From the IMG/VR virus record IMGVR_UViG_3300010149_000059, positions 1-36,629 of that record: a stretch of 36,629 nucleotides of DNA. One strand, 5' to 3'. Source of the DNA: a virus. The notes beneath the pieces were generated by a model that worked only from the letters and a program-made list of their open reading frames with translations, was not told the DNA's origin and did not search any database. Shown piece after piece: positions 20,013 to 36,629 of the stretch (position 1 is its first letter; every line of letters starts with the position of its first letter). The position numbers and the translations under genes are program-made.

Positions 20013-20019
20013 TATTTAT
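20013..20019 (-). promoter_or_regulatory. T4-type late promoter for gp20
   Basis: Minus-strand TGATAAATAG about 29 nt upstream of ATG 19984. The TGA is the stop codon of gp19. Confidence 0.75.
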
Positions 20020-29049: not shown

Positions 29050-30264
29050 TTATGATTTCCTATATCGAATAATACAAACTCCAGATCCACCTGGAGCACC
29101 TACAGCACCGCTACGTGGGGCGTTATAACCGCCACCACCGCCACCGCCACCGCGATTAGTTGCGCCAGCTTCAGCACTATTAGGTGTGGGACTACCGAAA
29201 TTGACTGGAGCACCTGTTGCTCGTCCACCATCTCCCCCACCATAGTCACCTGCTTTTGTGCCACGACGGCGACCTGTGCCTCGGACACCGCCACCACCAC
29301 CGCCAGCATAACCAACCATTGATCCAGTGATATCAAAGTATCCTCCGTGACCACCTTCACCCCCAGTATCTCTGGGAGCTCCACCAGTGCCGCCATTAGT
29401 ACCAAATCCACCACCACCTGCTCCTGTGTCTCCATCACCACGATTGCCGCCAGCGTTTCCTTGAACTCCTTGGCATTCATTAGTTGATGTTTCAATTGCC
29501 TCCCAACTTTGAGCACCTCTAGCAAGTGCGTCACCATCAGCCATGGCCTCGTTATTACTAAGGTATACATCCCTAATATTATGTGCTTTATCTGTTGCTT
29601 GAGGTCCAAAGTTTTTACCAATTGCGTTTCCACCTCTTCTAGAGACGCTAGCAGATCCACCTCCAGAACCACCTTGACCAGCAATTCTATTTGGAGAACT
29701 TCCGCCATGAGCACAACCTCCACCACCACCTACTGCTTCATAACTAAATCCAGCATTATCAGTAAATGTAGATGGAGTTCCTGCGCGACCTTCTTGCTGT
29801 GAACTATTCCACCCAGTTCCTCCTGCTCCACCACCACCGATAGAAATATTATAAGTACCTGGTGCTAGATAAAGTTCTCTTCTGTAAATTACACCACCAG
29901 CACCACCACCACCACCGATGACGCCACCACCACCGCCTCCTCCAGCGATTAGTAGGAATTCTACACCACCATCTTGATTACTTTGGTTGACTGTTAGAGT
30001 TCCATCTCCAGTGAATCTATAAACTCTGTAACCACTATAGTCACCAGTTAAATCAGAAGTAACTACGCTACCAGTTGCACTAATATCATAATTCTGTTGA
30101 CCAAAACTCTTCCATTGAGATCCAGTCCATACCTGTAATTTATTTTCGGTACTATTAAATATCATGAATCCTGTGGCAGGATTCACGGGTCTGTTAGAAC
30201 TATTATAAAGGGGTAAGTTAAATTCCGTAGATACGTTTAAATCACCAACATTAATTTCGGACAT
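29050..30264 (-). CDS. Glycine-rich tail-fibre adhesin-like protein (paralogue 1)
   Basis: A 404-aa predicted virion protein. The first roughly 65 residues (NVGDLNVSTEFNLPLYNSS, GFMIFNSTENKLQVWTGSQW) form a short attachment module seen in phage fibre proteins. The rest is dominated by poly-glycine runs (AGGGGGGGVIGGGGGAGGV and similar) separated by loops with aromatic and polar residues, ending GGSGVCIIRYRKS. This layout resembles T-even gp38-type adhesins, where glycine runs pack as polyglycine II helices and loops bind the receptor. It is paralogous to 34178-35236. It has a perfect TATAAATA late promoter. Receptor unknown. Confidence 0.8.
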   Translation of the reverse strand: MSEINVGDLNVSTEFNLPLYNSSNRPVNPATGFMIFNSTENKLQVWTGSQWKSFGQQNYDISATGSVVTSDLTGDYSGYRVYRFTGDGTLTVNQSNQDGGVEFLLIAGGGGGGGVIGGGGGAGGVIYRRELYLAPGTYNISIGGGGAGGTGWNSSQQEGRAGTPSTFTDNAGFSYEAVGGGGGCAHGGSSPNRIAGQGGSGGGSASVSRRGGNAIGKNFGPQATDKAHNIRDVYLSNNEAMADGDALARGAQSWEAIETSTNECQGVQGNAGGNRGDGDTGAGGGGFGTNGGTGGAPRDTGGEGGHGGYFDITGSMVGYAGGGGGGVRGTGRRRGTKAGDYGGGDGGRATGAPVNFGSPTPNSAEAGATNRGGGGGGGGYNAPRSGAVGAPGGSGVCIIRYRKS

Positions 30265-30283: not shown

Positions 30284-30862
30284 CTATACTCTATTTATAG
30301 TATTACATCTATCATGTGCATGTTCTAGATGAGGACCATCTCTACGCACGTAGTGCATGAACATTTGATGATAGTATGATTTTGAATTTCCTTCCATTGG
30401 TTCTCTCCAATGAGGTCGTTCGCATCCTTTGTAAATTACCCCATCACCAGGATTTGTAATCAATGGGATATCATCTCCATCTGGAGTTGTAAACCATATT
30501 GGCCAATCATAATCTAAATTATGCGAGCAATTAATAGAGATGCTCACCTCGCATGCAGGTCTATCTACATGTTTTTCTAGTAATTGTTTTTTAAAATAAA
30601 ATCTGTCGTAAAAATATGTTGGATACAGAGGATCATTAATTACATTTTCTATTTTAGATTTTACATCAAAATGCAATTGTCTAAATTTTGGGTGATTATA
30701 TCTAGACAAACTACCACTAACTTGCCCTTCGTCAGGGATATGGATAACATTTCCTCTGGACTCGTAAGTATATTGTCCTCGTTCCCAAGGAATAGGTTCA
30801 AATAAAAATACAGGATTTATAATATTTTTTACTACAATAACAGACCAATCATTCCAATTCAT
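30284..30862 (-). CDS. Fe(II)/2OG oxygenase-like protein, enzyme 4 of the fibre operon
   Basis: A 192-aa protein resembling cyanophage 2OG-Fe(II) oxygenases. A putative HxD pair is in EKHVDRPACEVSISINC (H98, D100), and the distal His is in PGDGVIYKGCERPHWREP (H151). I start at ATG 30862 with GGAG at optimal spacing; ATG 30868 overlaps the previous stop as ATGA but has no proper spacing. It is the last gene of the halogenase/oxygenase block. The gly-rich paralogue's late promoter overlaps its 3' end. Substrate unknown. Confidence 0.72.
   Translation of the reverse strand: MNWNDWSVIVVKNIINPVFLFEPIPWERGQYTYESRGNVIHIPDEGQVSGSLSRYNHPKFRQLHFDVKSKIENVINDPLYPTYFYDRFYFKKQLLEKHVDRPACEVSISINCSHNLDYDWPIWFTTPDGDDIPLITNPGDGVIYKGCERPHWREPMEGNSKSYYHQMFMHYVRRDGPHLEHAHDRCNTINRV
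30292..30299 (-). promoter_or_regulatory. Perfect T4 late promoter for glycine-rich adhesin 1
   Basis: Minus-strand CTATAAATAG, exact match to the T4 TATAAATA consensus, 27 nt upstream of ATG 30264 and inside the end of the preceding gene. Confidence 0.85.
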
Positions 30863-30864
30863 AC

Positions 30865-31461
30865 TCATCTCCACTGAGGTCCAGTTACCCAAGCAACTAA
30901 AGATCGTCTTTCGCCAGACAATACTTTTTTAGCTCTATGGGGAAGTCTACTATCAAAAATAATAATAGTTCCTTTTGTTTTTGGTGCAAAAAAAGTTCTG
31001 TTTTGATCTTCCATCATTTGAAATTCTCCACCAGTATAATCTTCATGTGAAGATAACTGGACAACCACAGACAATTTTCTAATCTGTTTAGTATTTCTAT
31101 CAATAAAAGAATCAACTGGATGCTTAGGATCAGGAGAAACTATACTTCCTACTCCATCGTCTTTATGCCATCCATAATATTGACCAGTTTTGTATCTAGT
31201 ATATTGTATTGAATTATGATCAAATTCTTTAATGTCGTAACCAAAATTGCTATCGTTTGCTAGAGTAACATAATGCCACAACAATCCACCAATCCAATGG
31301 GTATCAGGAATCCATTGATTTGAACTATCTCTAACTGCTAATGCTAATCCACCTTTAGTTTCTGAGTCAATAAAATTATCAGATCTTTCTAAAGTTAATA
31401 CTAGTGGATCAATTAACTCATCTGGTAAATGTGATTGATACCACATCGCTTCATATGCCAT
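30865..31461 (-). CDS. Fe(II)/2OG oxygenase (prolyl-hydroxylase-like), enzyme 3
   Basis: A 198-aa oxygenase with a complete facial triad in the double-stranded beta-helix order: YGWHKDDGV (H99, D101), LSVVVQLSSHEDYTGGEFQ, and the distal IIIFDSRLPHRAKKV (H175), followed by GERRSLVAWV (R185/R186) for 2-oxoglutarate. The pattern is of the P4H/PKHD (PiuC-like) group, which hydroxylates proteins or small molecules. It begins 2 nt after the halogenase stop (31464). Substrate unknown; protein or host-surface modification are possible. Confidence 0.88.
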   Translation of the reverse strand: MAYEAMWYQSHLPDELIDPLVLTLERSDNFIDSETKGGLALAVRDSSNQWIPDTHWIGGLLWHYVTLANDSNFGYDIKEFDHNSIQYTRYKTGQYYGWHKDDGVGSIVSPDPKHPVDSFIDRNTKQIRKLSVVVQLSSHEDYTGGEFQMMEDQNRTFFAPKTKGTIIIFDSRLPHRAKKVLSGERRSLVAWVTGPQWR

Positions 31462-31463
31462 AA

Positions 31464-33020
31464 TTAATTAACCTCATATCCATATTTATCTGCTAGGTGT
31501 TCATACAATGTCGGAGCAATATCTGTAATATGTTGCCACCATTGTTTTCTTCTGGAGAATCGTAACGCAGCTTCTTGTGCTACTTTTTTATAGTCCACAT
31601 CATTTTGATATGTCCATGCACAAATTGTTGATTCATCTGCAATTGGGTAATGCATACCTGTAGCAATATAAGGTTGCCCTCCATTACAAAATTTATCATC
31701 AATCATTTTTGCTACTGCTAGATGTCTAAAATCTGTTTGCATCTGAGGAATTCTTAAAATTTCTTCACGTAGATTAGATCTCTCTGTAATATCTCTCCAA
31801 TAAGGACTATCGTTTCTAGAACTAAGTTTATAGTGAAGACCCACAAAAGTAGCAAATGTATCAAATATATCACGCACAGACATGTTAAAAATGTCTCTGT
31901 CTAATTGGTTTACAAAAGGTTTAGAAATAGATTTTGTTAGTTTGAGTAGAAACTCATGTACAGTAAATAATCCATTGCTTTCTAAAGGTTCAATAAAACC
32001 TCCTGCTAAACCAATACCAACTACATTTTTACTCCATACATTTTTATGGATTCCAATACGCATTTTGATATCTCTAAACTCAAGATCATCTCTTCCTATG
32101 TGTTCTTGAAATTCTTTTAACGCATCTTCTGGTGTGATGTGATCATCACTATACACATAACCTGTACCAATTCTACTCCACAAAGGAATATTCCACACCC
32201 AACCAGATGATAAAGCAGTTCCATTAGTAAATGGTTCTAATTGTTTTTCTTTATCTGTATAAGGTAATCTAGTTGCCCATGCTCTGTTGTTGGGAACAAC
32301 ATCTCTATAAGAAACAAACTCCTCATTTAAAGCACCTGCTAAGAGCATACTTTTAAATCCTGTGCAATCAAGATACATGTCAGCAGAATGCTCTGTACCA
32401 TCTTCAAGAATTAATGATTCTACTCCATCTGCACCTACGATAGCATTCTTTACAGAAGATGAAATAAGTTCTACACCTCTAGGAAGGCAATAGTTATTTT
32501 TCAACCATTGCCCAAATTTAACAGCATCAAAATGATAAGCAGCATCTTTTGCAAAATTAAAATTATCTAAGTGACCACTCTCATTTTTATCAATTTTATT
32601 TTGCTCTGCTAAAAGGGTTATAGGATTATAACATCTAGCAAAATCTTGTACAGGAATACCAGGAGAAAAATGTTTTAATACTTGCCAATCATTAAACCCA
32701 AGGTCAGTTCCATCTAGCATTGGCGGTCCAAATGGGTAATGATAACCACCATCTCCCTTCGCATAAAAATCTGTAAATTTAATACTTAGTTTATAAGAAG
32801 CATCACACTCCTTCATAAAATCATCTTCACGAATTCCTAGCAGAGCTAACCACTGATTGATATGTCCTAGTGTACTTTCACCAACTCCTACGATTGGGTA
32901 GTCTGGACTTTCTATGATAGTAATTTTTCTGTTAGGGAAAAACCTAATCATTGTAGCGGCAGACATCCATCCAGCACTACCGCCACCAACTATAGTAATT
33001 GAATTAATTTCATTAGACAT
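31464..33020 (-). CDS. Flavin-dependent halogenase (VirX1/PrnA-like)
   Basis: A 518-aa FAD-dependent halogenase. Evidence: FAD-binding VGGGSAGW (12-18), GVGEST (45-50), the halogenase-specific WVWNIP (274-279, the WxWxIP motif that blocks monooxygenase activity), EPLESNGL (344-351, E347 equivalent to the PrnA catalytic-site Glu) and lysine K77 in ASYKLSIKF, aligning with PrnA Lys79 that forms the reactive halamine. From memory, cyanophage Syn10 VirX1 belongs to this family and iodinates diverse substrates. It oxidises a halide with FADH2 and O2. No flavin reductase lies in the window, so host FADH2 would be used. It is flanked by 2OG oxygenase genes, overlapping one by 8 nt. Natural substrate unknown. 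Confidence 0.93.
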   Translation of the reverse strand: MSNEINSITIVGGGSAGWMSAATMIRFFPNRKITIIESPDYPIVGVGESTLGHINQWLALLGIREDDFMKECDASYKLSIKFTDFYAKGDGGYHYPFGPPMLDGTDLGFNDWQVLKHFSPGIPVQDFARCYNPITLLAEQNKIDKNESGHLDNFNFAKDAAYHFDAVKFGQWLKNNYCLPRGVELISSSVKNAIVGADGVESLILEDGTEHSADMYLDCTGFKSMLLAGALNEEFVSYRDVVPNNRAWATRLPYTDKEKQLEPFTNGTALSSGWVWNIPLWSRIGTGYVYSDDHITPEDALKEFQEHIGRDDLEFRDIKMRIGIHKNVWSKNVVGIGLAGGFIEPLESNGLFTVHEFLLKLTKSISKPFVNQLDRDIFNMSVRDIFDTFATFVGLHYKLSSRNDSPYWRDITERSNLREEILRIPQMQTDFRHLAVAKMIDDKFCNGGQPYIATGMHYPIADESTICAWTYQNDVDYKKVAQEAALRFSRRKQWWQHITDIAPTLYEHLADKYGYEVN

Positions 33021-33684
33021 TTTTGTACACCTTAATATTGCATGAAATAGTTACTCGTTCTTTGTTTGATTTTCCTACGGTAGGAACTTCGTGTTTGACG
33101 TGTCCTGGAAAAATCATATAATCATCTTCTTCGGTATCAATTGACCATGTATCTTGCATGTAACTAAAAAATGGATTCTTATTATCAAACGAATTATATA
33201 GATCTTTCTGTAACCACCTAGTTTGATCTGATGAACTAAATGGATTGTTAAAGCACGTAGAAGGGTGATTAAATTTATCAAATTGTACAAATAACACAGA
33301 ACTAAAAGAGTCGCAACCATGACCATGACTGGTGAGGAAGTAACCTTCTGTAGATACTGTGTAATTAGTTATTTGAAAAAAATAATTGATGCTGGAATTT
33401 AATCCAAGGTGAGAAAGAAATTCTCTAACCTTCGAGTCTATAACAGAAGTCAATCCAGAGTCTTCGTAACTGATAGATTTAAATTTTTTGTCTGCCTCAT
33501 CATTATTGGAGTGATGCCAGTTACTCTTCATAGTAGTTGGCATCACCTTATCCCAAGTATTTCTTTTGGGATCTACATTAAAATTGTACAACATCTCATT
33601 AAGAATGAGATCTTTATCATAATCATTTTTAGTTATTTTTGTTTTCCATACTGGTATAGAAAACACATTATATAATTCACTCAT
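33013..33684 (-). CDS. Fe(II)/2OG oxygenase-like protein, enzyme 2
   Basis: A 223-aa protein of the 2OG-FeII_Oxy_5-like type. It opens YNVFSIPVWKTKI, typical of that group, and carries FLTSHGHGCDSFSSVLFVQF (H120, H122 candidate metal ligands) with a second His in MIFPGHVKHEVPT and an Arg in KERVTISCNIKV. It overlaps the halogenase start by 8 nt and the oxygenase upstream by 8 nt, so all are translated from one message. Substrate unknown. The arrangement is distant from the gene at 6609 but of the same family. Confidence 0.8.
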   Translation of the reverse strand: MSELYNVFSIPVWKTKITKNDYDKDLILNEMLYNFNVDPKRNTWDKVMPTTMKSNWHHSNNDEADKKFKSISYEDSGLTSVIDSKVREFLSHLGLNSSINYFFQITNYTVSTEGYFLTSHGHGCDSFSSVLFVQFDKFNHPSTCFNNPFSSSDQTRWLQKDLYNSFDNKNPFFSYMQDTWSIDTEEDDYMIFPGHVKHEVPTVGKSNKERVTISCNIKVYKNV

Positions 33685-34174
33685 AGTTAAAAATAATGTT
33701 GCTTCTGAATTCAGAATCAGTGCATGTCGTACTACAATGAGGTTTTGCTGGATTGAAAAATAATGCTCTGTTTGATATAGAACGAATGCCTACAGCATTC
33801 TCATCATCTTCTTTTAATAACGTTGACCCATCATTAGTATTTAGGTAGACTATACAACCTCTATGATCCCAGAGCATATCTGTATGCCAGTCGTGGCGCA
33901 CGATCTCAGTAGTTTTGGGAAATAAATTTAATTGAACTCTTAACAATTTTTCAGTTTTAATTTTTTCTATAATAGGAGAAAGATGCTCGTAGTAATCACT
34001 GCACACCTCACCAGCAAAGAAAAAATTGTGAGTAAAATAAATCCCGTCGTCTGAAGACGCCGACGCTACTCGGTGCTTCAAATACAACGGGAAATAAGGA
34101 TTGTTTATTGTTTGTTTAGTTAGTTGTTCAAACTCTTCACTATTGAGGAAATTTTCCTCTACATTGTAAAACAT
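33677..34174 (-). CDS. Fe(II)/2OG oxygenase-like protein, enzyme 1
   Basis: A 165-aa compact oxygenase with VRHDWHTDM (H97, D99), HRGCIVYLNTNDGSTLLKED in the centre, and FFNPAKPHCSTTC (H146) followed by DSEFRSNIIF (R157) as the distal triad and 2OG-binding Arg. It starts 3 nt after the stop of glycine-rich adhesin 2 (TAA TAT ATG). It is thus the first enzyme translated after a fibre gene on the same message. Confidence 0.82.
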   Translation of the reverse strand: MFYNVEENFLNSEEFEQLTKQTINNPYFPLYLKHRVASASSDDGIYFTHNFFFAGEVCSDYYEHLSPIIEKIKTEKLLRVQLNLFPKTTEIVRHDWHTDMLWDHRGCIVYLNTNDGSTLLKEDDENAVGIRSISNRALFFNPAKPHCSTTCTDSEFRSNIIFNYE

Positions 34175-34177
34175 ATA

Positions 34178-35236
34178 TTAGATTGTATGACGAACACGAA
34201 CGATGCCAGGACCACCAGCAGCTCCTTGACCATTACCACCACCATTATACCAGCCGCCTCCGCCGCCACCACCAGTGTTAACTTGTCCTGGTTCACCCCA
34301 ACCTTGTCCACCGCCACCTGCATATTGCGATGATCTAGATCCACCACGACCACCGCCACCAGGAGCAGCAGGAGTTGTGATTGGAGCATTACCATAGTTT
34401 TCGTGACTTCCTCCGCCACCTCCACCACCAACAGTTAGTCCCATATAAGTGATTCCATCACCTCCAACTCTTCCATTAACTGTGTTGTTGGGGTTAGCAC
34501 CACCGCCGCCACCGCCAGTATGAGTACCAGAGTGTGTTCCAGAAACATTATTGCCGTTTCTATAACCAGGATTTCCGTGAGTAACACCACCACCAGGAGC
34601 AGTACCTTGAGTTGCTTCTCCTCTTTGTGGTTGTCTAGGACCAGGACCAGATGCGCCGCCACCAGAACCACCTGGTTCTCCAGTTTCTCTAGCATTAGGA
34701 CCCCATGATCCAGCAGAACCACCACCAAATGCAGTATGCGTTCCAAACTTAGAAGGAGATCCACTAGTTCCTTTGTTGGCAGGATGTCCAGCTAGAGGTG
34801 TCTGTCCACCTGCTCCCACTTTTACATCATAAGAACCAACTGTGATTGGATAAGATCCGTGGTAGCAAACGCCACCGCCGCCGCCTCCTCCACCAATAGT
34901 TCCGCCACAACCACCACCTGCTGCCACAAGAACTTCGGCAGTAGCACCACCAGCAGCTCCCGTTACATTAAAATTATACTCTCCAACATTGTACCATGTG
35001 TGAACTTTATATCCACCAGAGAATGTAATCTCACCACCAGTAGCAGTAATCAAACCACTACCTGCAGAACCCGCACTAATCCATTGTGATCCATCGGATA
35101 TTTGAATAGTATCCGAAGTCGAATCATAGATAGTCCTGCCAGCACTATGTGATGGTCGGTTATCTGGACTTGATGTATATGAAGGAAGTGTCAGTCCGTT
35201 AGACAGAGTTACAGTTCCTACGTTTAGACTAGACAT
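34178..35236 (-). CDS. Glycine-rich tail-fibre adhesin-like protein (paralogue 2)
   Basis: A 352-aa predicted virion protein with the same plan as 29050-30264. The N-terminal module (NVGTVTLSNGLTLPSYTSS, then TIYDSTSDTIQISDGSQW) matches the other paralogue, and a long poly-glycine core (VAAGGGCGGTIGGGGGGGGV and similar) ends GGPGIVRVRHTI, again ending in a short basic motif. It is likely a receptor-binding or fibre-tip protein. It is the first gene of the transcript that carries the oxygenases and halogenase. Confidence 0.8.
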   Translation of the reverse strand: MSSLNVGTVTLSNGLTLPSYTSSPDNRPSHSAGRTIYDSTSDTIQISDGSQWISAGSAGSGLITATGGEITFSGGYKVHTWYNVGEYNFNVTGAAGGATAEVLVAAGGGCGGTIGGGGGGGGVCYHGSYPITVGSYDVKVGAGGQTPLAGHPANKGTSGSPSKFGTHTAFGGGSAGSWGPNARETGEPGGSGGGASGPGPRQPQRGEATQGTAPGGGVTHGNPGYRNGNNVSGTHSGTHTGGGGGGANPNNTVNGRVGGDGITYMGLTVGGGGGGGSHENYGNAPITTPAAPGGGGRGGSRSSQYAGGGGQGWGEPGQVNTGGGGGGGWYNGGGNGQGAAGGPGIVRVRHTI

Positions 35237-35269: not shown

Positions 35270-35276
35270 TATTTAT
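35270..35276 (-). promoter_or_regulatory. T4-type late promoter for adhesin 2 and the oxygenase/halogenase operon
   Basis: Minus-strand TGATAAATAG, 33 nt upstream of ATG 35236; its TGA is the stop codon of the tail-fibre gene. No other promoter is seen until 30299. Confidence 0.75.
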
Positions 35277-36629
35277 CACATAATTACCCAGTTACCTACG
35301 ACATCAACTACAACGCCTGGTTGAATTGTAATCGGACCAATGGACATTGCGTTAGCATTTGCAGGAATAGTTACATCTTCTGCCAATGTGTTAGCAGAGT
35401 TTTTGATGATGCCTGTGGTGTCAATCCATTGGGGGGTGTCTCTAATATACATGACACCATTTAGTCCAAGGTGTCCATCATTACCACCACCACCAATTTG
35501 TAGATCATAATCTGGGTCACCAGTAAATCCATTAACAGAGGAATCTGGGTTAATCCATACCTTAGACTCTCTGTAGATATCCAGTTCATTTGCAGATTCT
35601 GTCCATCTGGAAGTAACGAACTCAGCGTTGTTCTGGAAGACCAGACCATTGATGTTGATATCGCCTTGGATGTTCAGTTGATATTCTCTCTGGACCTGTG
35701 GATCTACTGTAGTATCAGTACCACCAAATAGGAGAGTGTTGATTGCAACTCTGTTCTCAGAACCTTGGATTGCAAGTGCTGGTGTACTCTTCCAAGTTAA
35801 ACCTCCTGCAACGGCACCATCACTAGGTGTGATTTCAAAAGTATCTGATTGTAGTAGTTGATTACCAACACGGAAGTTACTTAGATAGTTACCAGGAGTT
35901 CCAGAAGATGCACCAGTTGCACCTGCGTAAATTACAGGAGCACCAGCATTACTATCTGCACGACCAACTTGAACTGCTGTCTTAACTCTTGCTGATCCAT
36001 TTACATCCAACTCATAGGCATCGTTGGCAGTCATCTGTACACCCAGATTGCCGTTACCAGTAATCGTTAGAGCGTCAGTAAATGCACCAGTGCTGAAATG
36101 CATTGCAACTTGTGTTGTCAGCGAATTGTATAGTTGTTTAAAGTATACATCACCAACAGAGTTGTCATACTTCAGTTCAAGACCTTCATCAGTAGTGCCA
36201 TCCTGACCCAGCAATTGAATTATTGAATCGCGTTGATTTGGACCACCACCAACGTTGTAGGATGAGTACATTCTCAGGACAACATCTTGATCTCCATCTT
36301 CTACAATCAGAAGTTTTACTGCAGAATCAGAAGTAGTTGTACCAATGCTTACTGTATCATCTGTAGCATCAACGTGCAATGTGTTAGTGTTGACTGTTAG
36401 GTCAGCAGCAACTGTAATATTGCTTAAGAAATCTCCTCTGCCAGATACGCTCAATGCTTGACTTCCTGCCGCTACTCCACCGATGGTGAGCAGACCTGAC
36501 ATTGTATCGCCTGCCTTAAGAACGTTAAGCGAAGCAGCACCAGTTAGAGAAGCAGTGATTGTTCCAGCACTAAAGTTTCCACTGGTGTCTCTTGATACTG
36601 CAGACTTCAGTGATGTTGTTGATAATACA
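35276..36629 (-). CDS. Tail-fibre-like structural protein, 5' end outside the window
   Basis: Partial gene: the frame stays open to the right edge, and the internal Met at 36502 is not a likely start. The codons upstream of it encode VSRDTSGNFSAGTITASLTG and then NVLKAGDTMSGLLTI, the recurring 'SRDxxGNFSAGTITAxLxG ... GDTMxGxLT' unit of long phage tail-fibre proteins. The visible 451 or so residues are beta-rich and Thr/Ser/Gly/Asn-rich, ending VVVDVVGNWVIM. It is probably a large tail-fibre protein whose N-terminus lies beyond the window. Exact gp number (34-37-like) cannot be assigned. Confidence 0.75.
   Translation of the reverse strand, partial: VLSTTSLKSAVSRDTSGNFSAGTITASLTGAASLNVLKAGDTMSGLLTIGGVAAGSQALSVSGRGDFLSNITVAADLTVNTNTLHVDATDDTVSIGTTTSDSAVKLLIVEDGDQDVVLRMYSSYNVGGGPNQRDSIIQLLGQDGTTDEGLELKYDNSVGDVYFKQLYNSLTTQVAMHFSTGAFTDALTITGNGNLGVQMTANDAYELDVNGSARVKTAVQVGRADSNAGAPVIYAGATGASSGTPGNYLSNFRVGNQLLQSDTFEITPSDGAVAGGLTWKSTPALAIQGSENRVAINTLLFGGTDTTVDPQVQREYQLNIQGDININGLVFQNNAEFVTSRWTESANELDIYRESKVWINPDSSVNGFTGDPDYDLQIGGGGNDGHLGLNGVMYIRDTPQWIDTTGIIKNSANTLAEDVTIPANANAMSIGPITIQPGVVVDVVGNWVIM

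Follow-up and report, generated by a model that had tools for sequence, protein, structure and literature searches.

The locus described here raises the question of why a marine phage would place a flavin halogenase and four 2-oxoglutarate (2OG) oxygenase-like enzymes between two glycine-rich fibre adhesins. It lies in the IMG/VR record IMGVR_UViG_3300010149_000059, a viral DNA of 36,629 nucleotides (nt) that was analysed at its full length and is referred to as the window. Enzymes of both kinds are widespread and unexplained in marine phages, where they are grouped with the auxiliary metabolic genes. The reading favoured here, with a probability of about 0.6, is that these enzymes add hydroxyl groups and halogens to adhesin side chains in the course of assembly, the locus being a cassette that tailors the fibre tip. 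The major head protein, scaffold, portal, tail sheath, terminase, sheath stabiliser and neck proteins identify this 36.6 kb record as a T4-like cyanophage. Synechococcus phage Sf-CH11 has 82% DNA identity over 94% of the right-hand 23.6 kb of the window, and the head and neck part of the window is also matched by S-RIM44 and Syn1.

Transcription of the window, with all of its features given below, is from the minus strand, and the cassette runs from adhesin 1 (34178-35236) through two 2OG-oxygenase-like genes (33677-34174 and 33013-33684), the halogenase (31464-33020) and two more 2OG-like genes (30865-31461 and 30284-30868) to adhesin 2 (29050-30264). Adhesin 1 follows, after 39 nt, the C-terminal part of a large tail fibre protein (35276-36628; phrog_5342 tail fiber, E 1.8e-93), which runs off the window. 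The next gaps are +3, -8, -8, +2 and about -4 nt, the last assuming an ATG start at 30868, as the listed TTG at 30892 was judged unlikely, and adhesin 2 starts 19 nt past the last oxygenase gene. The gene order, strand and tight spacing proposed in an earlier, sequence-only reading of this DNA are borne out, with genes as described and gaps of -8 to +3 nt.

The halogenase is a VirX1-type, flavin-dependent enzyme of 518 amino acids, which scores 340.9 bits with PF04820 (cut-off 21; E 1.5e-101). Its best PDB match is VirX1 of phage Syn10 (6qgm, E 1.8e-108), and it shares about 39-43% identity with the two halogenases of Syn10. The GxGxxG motif, the catalytic Lys, the WxWxIP motif and the Glu form a complete set, and K77 and E344 are 100% conserved across 92 halogenase representatives; halogenating activity with FADH2 and halide is predicted. 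VirX1 is active in vitro, has an unusually open active site and accepts many small aromatics, and the review consulted names no native substrate (PMC8407142).

The four oxygenase-like proteins fall in the PHROG families phrog_61, 81, 274 and 2954. Two of them, at 30865-31461 (PF13640, E 9e-14) and 33013-33684 (PF13759, E 4.8e-7), score above the Pfam cut-offs for the Fe(II)/2OG oxygenase superfamily. The first carries the iron triad and the 2OG-binding Arg (H99, D101, H175, and R185), and its nearest PDB sequence is the PKHD-type hydroxylase 3dkq; in the second, H120, H122, H198, and R210 are conserved and HxH replaces the usual HxD. The protein of 194 amino acids at 30284-30868 (phrog_2954, E 6e-63) has no meaningful Pfam match; its AlphaFold2 model, with a predicted local distance difference test (pLDDT) score of 84, is assigned by Foldseek to the 2OG double-stranded beta-helix fold. 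This model matches AlkB and prolyl-4-hydroxylase at E of about 1e-7, the Pseudomonas prolyl-4-hydroxylase bound to EF-Tu being among the top structural matches, and the HxD...H iron triad (H100, D102, and H153) is near-invariant in the family. The protein at 33677-34174 is putatively placed as 2OG-oxygenase-like by its phage family profile (phrog_274, E 3e-37) and by H97, H146, and R157, which are conserved in its family, PF13640 matching weakly (E 0.057). No signal peptide is obvious by eye on the cassette enzymes, which look cytosolic. The labels 'DNA endonuclease V' for phrog_274 and 'ferrochelatase' for phrog_2954 and 3531 sit on such 2OG-oxygenase-like proteins and look like misannotations.

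Adhesin 1 (352 amino acids, 30% Gly) matches PF21722 above the cut-off and phrog_2295, and adhesin 2 (404 amino acids, 27% Gly) matches the same two families with E of 5.7e-15 and 9e-54. The top PDB fold match of the adhesin 1 model is the fibre of cyanophage Pam3 (7ypx, E 3e-5), followed by the Bxb1 tail tip and the Gly-rich domain of ALK, and this fold match is given moderate weight because the pLDDT of the model is 56. By family and fold, adhesin 1 thus has the Gly-rich domain of the Pam3 gp24 and S16 gp38 tips, with which it also shares the gene position at the fibre end, and it is a putative receptor-binding fibre tip of this type. The Pam3 paper likens its fibre to S16 gp38 and ALK and ascribes receptor binding to the variable tips of Gly-rich loops (PMC9608196). 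Pam3 and S16 differ from the window in that the parts of their literature covered mention no enzyme cassette, and in that the window adhesin is compared through a low-confidence model. The virion study of S-SZBM1, a phage with a comparable locus (see below), reports no long tail fibre protein; the only modifications its spectral search admitted were Met oxidation, deamidation, N-terminal acetylation and pyro-Glu, and halogenated peptides or peptides hydroxylated at other residues would therefore have escaped it. In most relatives, a protein of 140-190 amino acids that is absent from the window follows the Gly-rich gene (for example L085:9487-9981 and L046:2075-2596, L numbers denoting individual loci); it could be a fibre chaperone, and a PDB sequence search with it gave no match.

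Late-promoter-like boxes precede both adhesins. The box ATAAATA at 35270-35276 lies 34 nt before adhesin 1 and is kept in 8/8 relatives, and the portal gene at 20019 is preceded by the same sequence, TGATAAATAGA. The box CTATAAATAG at 30292-30298 lies 28 nt before adhesin 2 and is kept in 9/9 relatives. Both had been proposed before and are confirmed by motif and conservation, while the claim that the element at 35270 is the only one in the operon fails, since a third ATAAATA at 31483-31489, 22 nt before the 30865-31461 gene, had been overlooked. This third box is kept in 9/9 relatives as well, which may reflect coding constraint because it sits within the halogenase coding sequence. The cassette is therefore likely transcribed as at least one message, perhaps as two overlapping ones. 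ATAAATA occurs in the window at chance level (10 observed, 8.8 expected), all ten copies being on the coding strand, and a sigma-70 promoter scan of the window was uninformative (21 sites, 26 expected).

The same neighbourhood of Gly-rich or 'tail fiber' genes, one or more halogenases and a run of 2OG genes is found in Sf-CH11, S-RIM44, Sf-FP1, Sf-FR1, Syn10, S-CREM1, P-TIM40, S-WAM1, S-SZBM1, and P-RSM6. The distance from the halogenase to the nearest PF21722 gene is 1.5-2.5 kb, centre to centre, in 10 of the 11 phage genomes with a window-type halogenase (random-placement p of 0.02-0.08 per genome). The largest 2OG run of the genome lies in the fibre module in 5 of 6 whole genomes, with 4, 4, 4, 8, and 7 genes, these five being all the analysed whole genomes with a window-type halogenase in the fibre module. 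A circular-shift test of all 2OG against all Gly-rich genes genome-wide is weak (p 0.01-0.47), since clusters of 2OG genes exist at other sites as well.

Relatives of the window halogenase are encoded in at least 587 viral-contig stretches. Among 78 loci with enough flank, a 2OG gene lies within 3.5 kb of the halogenase in 71, and a Gly-rich gene (by a composition rule of more than 18% Gly in a protein of more than 100 amino acids) within 4 kb in 45; for the Gly-rich gene, the corresponding share of background genes is about 5-15%. Loci differ in gene order and strand, the Gly-rich gene standing before or after the halogenase on the same or the opposite strand, and the cassette is also present in L046 and L315, two contigs that are apparently not T4-like. 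In the tree of the 92 representatives, a large clade that includes the window enzyme and VirX1 has 36 fibre-linked and 8 unlinked members among the judgeable rows. Two to four halogenases occur in 28 of the 78 loci; in L032-L038, L050, L051, L058, and L301, 2-4 different halogenase genes are clustered within one fibre module, the copies coming, where placed, from separate branches of the tree.

A reciprocal search that starts from the adhesin is free of the bias of starting from the halogenase. With the Syn10-type adhesin as the start, a halogenase is found at 0.5-2.9 kb in 64/64 loci with enough flank, while the S-SM1-type adhesin (at least 66% identity) has a halogenase in 0/36 loci, all of which have two or more 2OG genes within 5 kb (36/36; mean 6.6). 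Halogenase presence is uniform within every adhesin cluster (0 of 71 are mixed). Seven members of the phage collection have the Syn10-type adhesin, and all seven encode a window-type halogenase, adjacent to this adhesin wherever the locus was read. The adhesin of L046 matched only L046 itself, and that of L057 gave only two new loci, both with a halogenase. Adhesin type predicts the enzyme repertoire.

The divergence of close relatives follows the same boundary. Between the window and S-RIM44 or Sf-FP1, head and neck proteins are 78-97% identical, while the fibre end is at 38-40%, the halogenase at 43-45% and two oxygenases at 32-37%, and the adhesins and the other two oxygenases are unrecognisable. 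Loci L045 and L186 share 90% identity in gp13 and differ in their fibre proteins, and only one has a halogenase; the halogenase-free member carries an S-SM1-type adhesin and nine 2OG genes. The core stays nearly identical where fibre end, adhesins and enzymes diverge, and therefore adhesins and enzymes change together; the comparisons indicate that fibre end, adhesins and enzymes are swapped as a block between phages with nearly the same neck genes.

The enzymes are taken to act on the fibre tip because they look cytosolic, are placed under the late boxes of fibre genes, and travel with the adhesin. Late in infection, the Gly-rich receptor-binding tip and the enzymes would be made from the same message, and the enzymes would act on the tip while it is in the cytoplasm, either ahead of fibre assembly or in the course of it. 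Hydroxylation of adhesin side chains would fall to the 2OG oxygenases, and the VirX1-type halogenase would place halogens on aromatic ones (Tyr, His or Trp), drawing on the halides abundant in sea water. The variable tip loops may in this way gain a surface chemistry beyond the 20 amino acids, altering receptor binding or stability.

Several points weigh against this tailoring of the tip. The observed order and spacing, the conservation of boxes and neighbourhood, the catalytic motifs, the enzyme sets specific to each adhesin and the block exchange make a genomic case of linkage and matching, from which we infer the protein substrate, residues, chemistry, timing and benefit, and the p values overstate independence because close relatives share cassettes by descent. 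The adhesin 1 model is of low confidence, as given above, and in S-B64, the single exception among the 11 genomes, 65 kb separate the halogenase from the Gly-rich gene. His (p 8e-4) and Tyr (p 0.03) are more frequent in adhesins that have a halogenase as a neighbour, which is a lead only, as nine residues were tested and the clusters are not independent. Trp content shows no difference between adhesins with and without such a neighbour (p 0.43), and Trp was dropped as the obvious halogenation target. Some fibre cassettes also add a NodU/CmcH-type carbamoyltransferase, better known from small-molecule and glycan pathways.

The linkage is also not a general rule for halogenases. The distant T4-GC 212 halogenases, as in S-PM2, P-SSM2, Syn1, and S-MbCM6, lie elsewhere, mostly in the region of photosynthesis and carbon genes, while the distant halogenases of S-SSM7 and HTVC008M are within 8-9 kb of a Gly-rich gene. 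The sequence-only reading had tied the enzymes to the fibre and would have been refuted had they lain far from fibre genes in related phages. They adjoin a Gly-rich gene in 10 of 11, and with the adhesin-predicted repertoire and the block exchange its interpretation gains partial support for the window-type enzyme, S-B64 and the T4-GC 212 halogenases standing as exceptions.

Among other explanations, the one that survives best is that the fibre-neck interval is a variable insertion site in which accessory enzymes ride along without acting on the adhesins. The interval is highly variable between close relatives, oxygenase genes occur in several other clusters of the same genomes, and the S-B64 halogenase is located elsewhere, all of which would fit. 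Yet hardly anything besides adhesins, 2OG enzymes, halogenases and some recurrent unknowns occurs in the interval, where common accessory genes such as psbA, hli and talC are absent; adhesin type predicts the halogenase (64/64 against 0/36); and the pairing recurs in other gene orders and in non-T4 contigs. We consider a mere hot spot unlikely.

Somewhat less likely again is a glycan or small-molecule pathway, in which a metabolite or surface sugar, perhaps one attached to the fibre or the host envelope, is built or decorated by the enzymes and carries halogens and hydroxyls. Antibiotic protection was proposed by the Syn9 authors, as cited in PMC2984593, and VirX1 takes many small aromatics (PMC8407142). 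For the carbamoyltransferase-halogenase cluster of S-SSM6a and S-SSM7, a halogenated secondary metabolite or capsule decoration was proposed (PMC7824862). That cluster resembles the window in that about 10 kb near gp13 hold a halogenase together with 2OG enzymes and fibre genes, and differs in that its halogenase, of the T4-GC 212 type, is only 29% identical to that of the window and that sugar genes are present. In L057 (10892-13679), L063, L312, and L313, a carbamoyltransferase stands beside halogenase and 2OG genes with a partner of about 315 amino acids and no assigned function; it could cap new hydroxyls, and could equally serve glycan or metabolite chemistry. Against such a pathway, the cassette of the window lacks genes for sugar nucleotides, scaffold building or transport, shares late boxes with fibre genes, and belongs to an adhesin-specific repertoire.

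That consumption of 2-oxoglutarate or DNA repair is the task of the 2OG enzymes and the halogenase is incidental, as cyanophage 2OG oxygenases were read in PMC3037559 and again in PMC9146016, is very improbable, as the genes hold a late-box, fibre-linked position and four divergent paralogues in one operon are unnecessary for burning 2-oxoglutarate, although the fold alone leaves 30284-30868 undecided because both AlkB and protein prolyl hydroxylase match it. The families so reported (T4-GC 104, 240, 412, and 611) were described as host-metabolism or DNA-repair genes and not as fibre-linked sets. Cyanophage halogenases are classed as auxiliary metabolic genes (PMC10452541), and for the window-type halogenase, late box and fibre linkage argue against such a role.

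Tailoring of a fibre protein by its own virus has a parallel by description in the Mimivirus collagen-modifying hydroxylase L230, a viral 2OG enzyme whose presumed substrate is a fibrous protein of that same virus; it differs in belonging to a eukaryotic virus, in acting on collagen lysine and in having no halogenase. The closest characterised system is VirX1 itself, of the same family as the window enzyme and with all catalytic motifs, the Syn10 halogenase genes standing behind Gly-rich fibre genes and ahead of a 2OG run. VirX1 was characterised with unnatural substrates only, and the parts of the literature covered by the search make no mention of its fibre-gene neighbourhood. Phage halogenases and 2OG oxygenases are thus already known and filed as auxiliary metabolic genes; the fibre link is new to the literature searched, as no paper on it or on halogenated virion proteins was found in the open literature, which was partially covered.

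A wider proposal, which we advance tentatively and with less confidence than the tailoring of this one tip, is that marine phages halogenate and hydroxylate their own receptor-binding tips with adhesin-matched enzymes, that post-translational chemistry in part determines host range, and that this is the natural role of VirX1-type halogenases. If this halogenase type serves the fibre, the count of auxiliary metabolic genes would be partly wrong and the native substrate of the iodinase VirX1 would become directly testable. Phage host recognition would gain a chemical layer that sequence-based host prediction misses, and adhesin-enzyme pairs would be natural tools for protein halogenation.

Some further observations concern the relatives. 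The family phrog_7084 (about 250 amino acids, no function, no Pfam match; for example L085:13087-13875) is absent from the window; 86 of 174 halogenase loci have it, never more than two genes away from the halogenase, as against only 2 of 82 halogenase-free loci, which makes it a probable halogenase partner. A bacterial origin was considered and rejected, a genome scan having found three loci. Two of them, L315 and L316, from metagenome-assembled genomes labelled Maricaulis and Euryarchaeota, carry the same cassette and look like phage contigs binned into these assemblies, and the third, L314, looks like a lone bacterial gene. In Sf-CH11, S-RIM44, and Sf-FP1, at about 40-51 kb and outside the fibre-neck interval, three 2OG genes follow a second Gly-rich gene as a run of their own.

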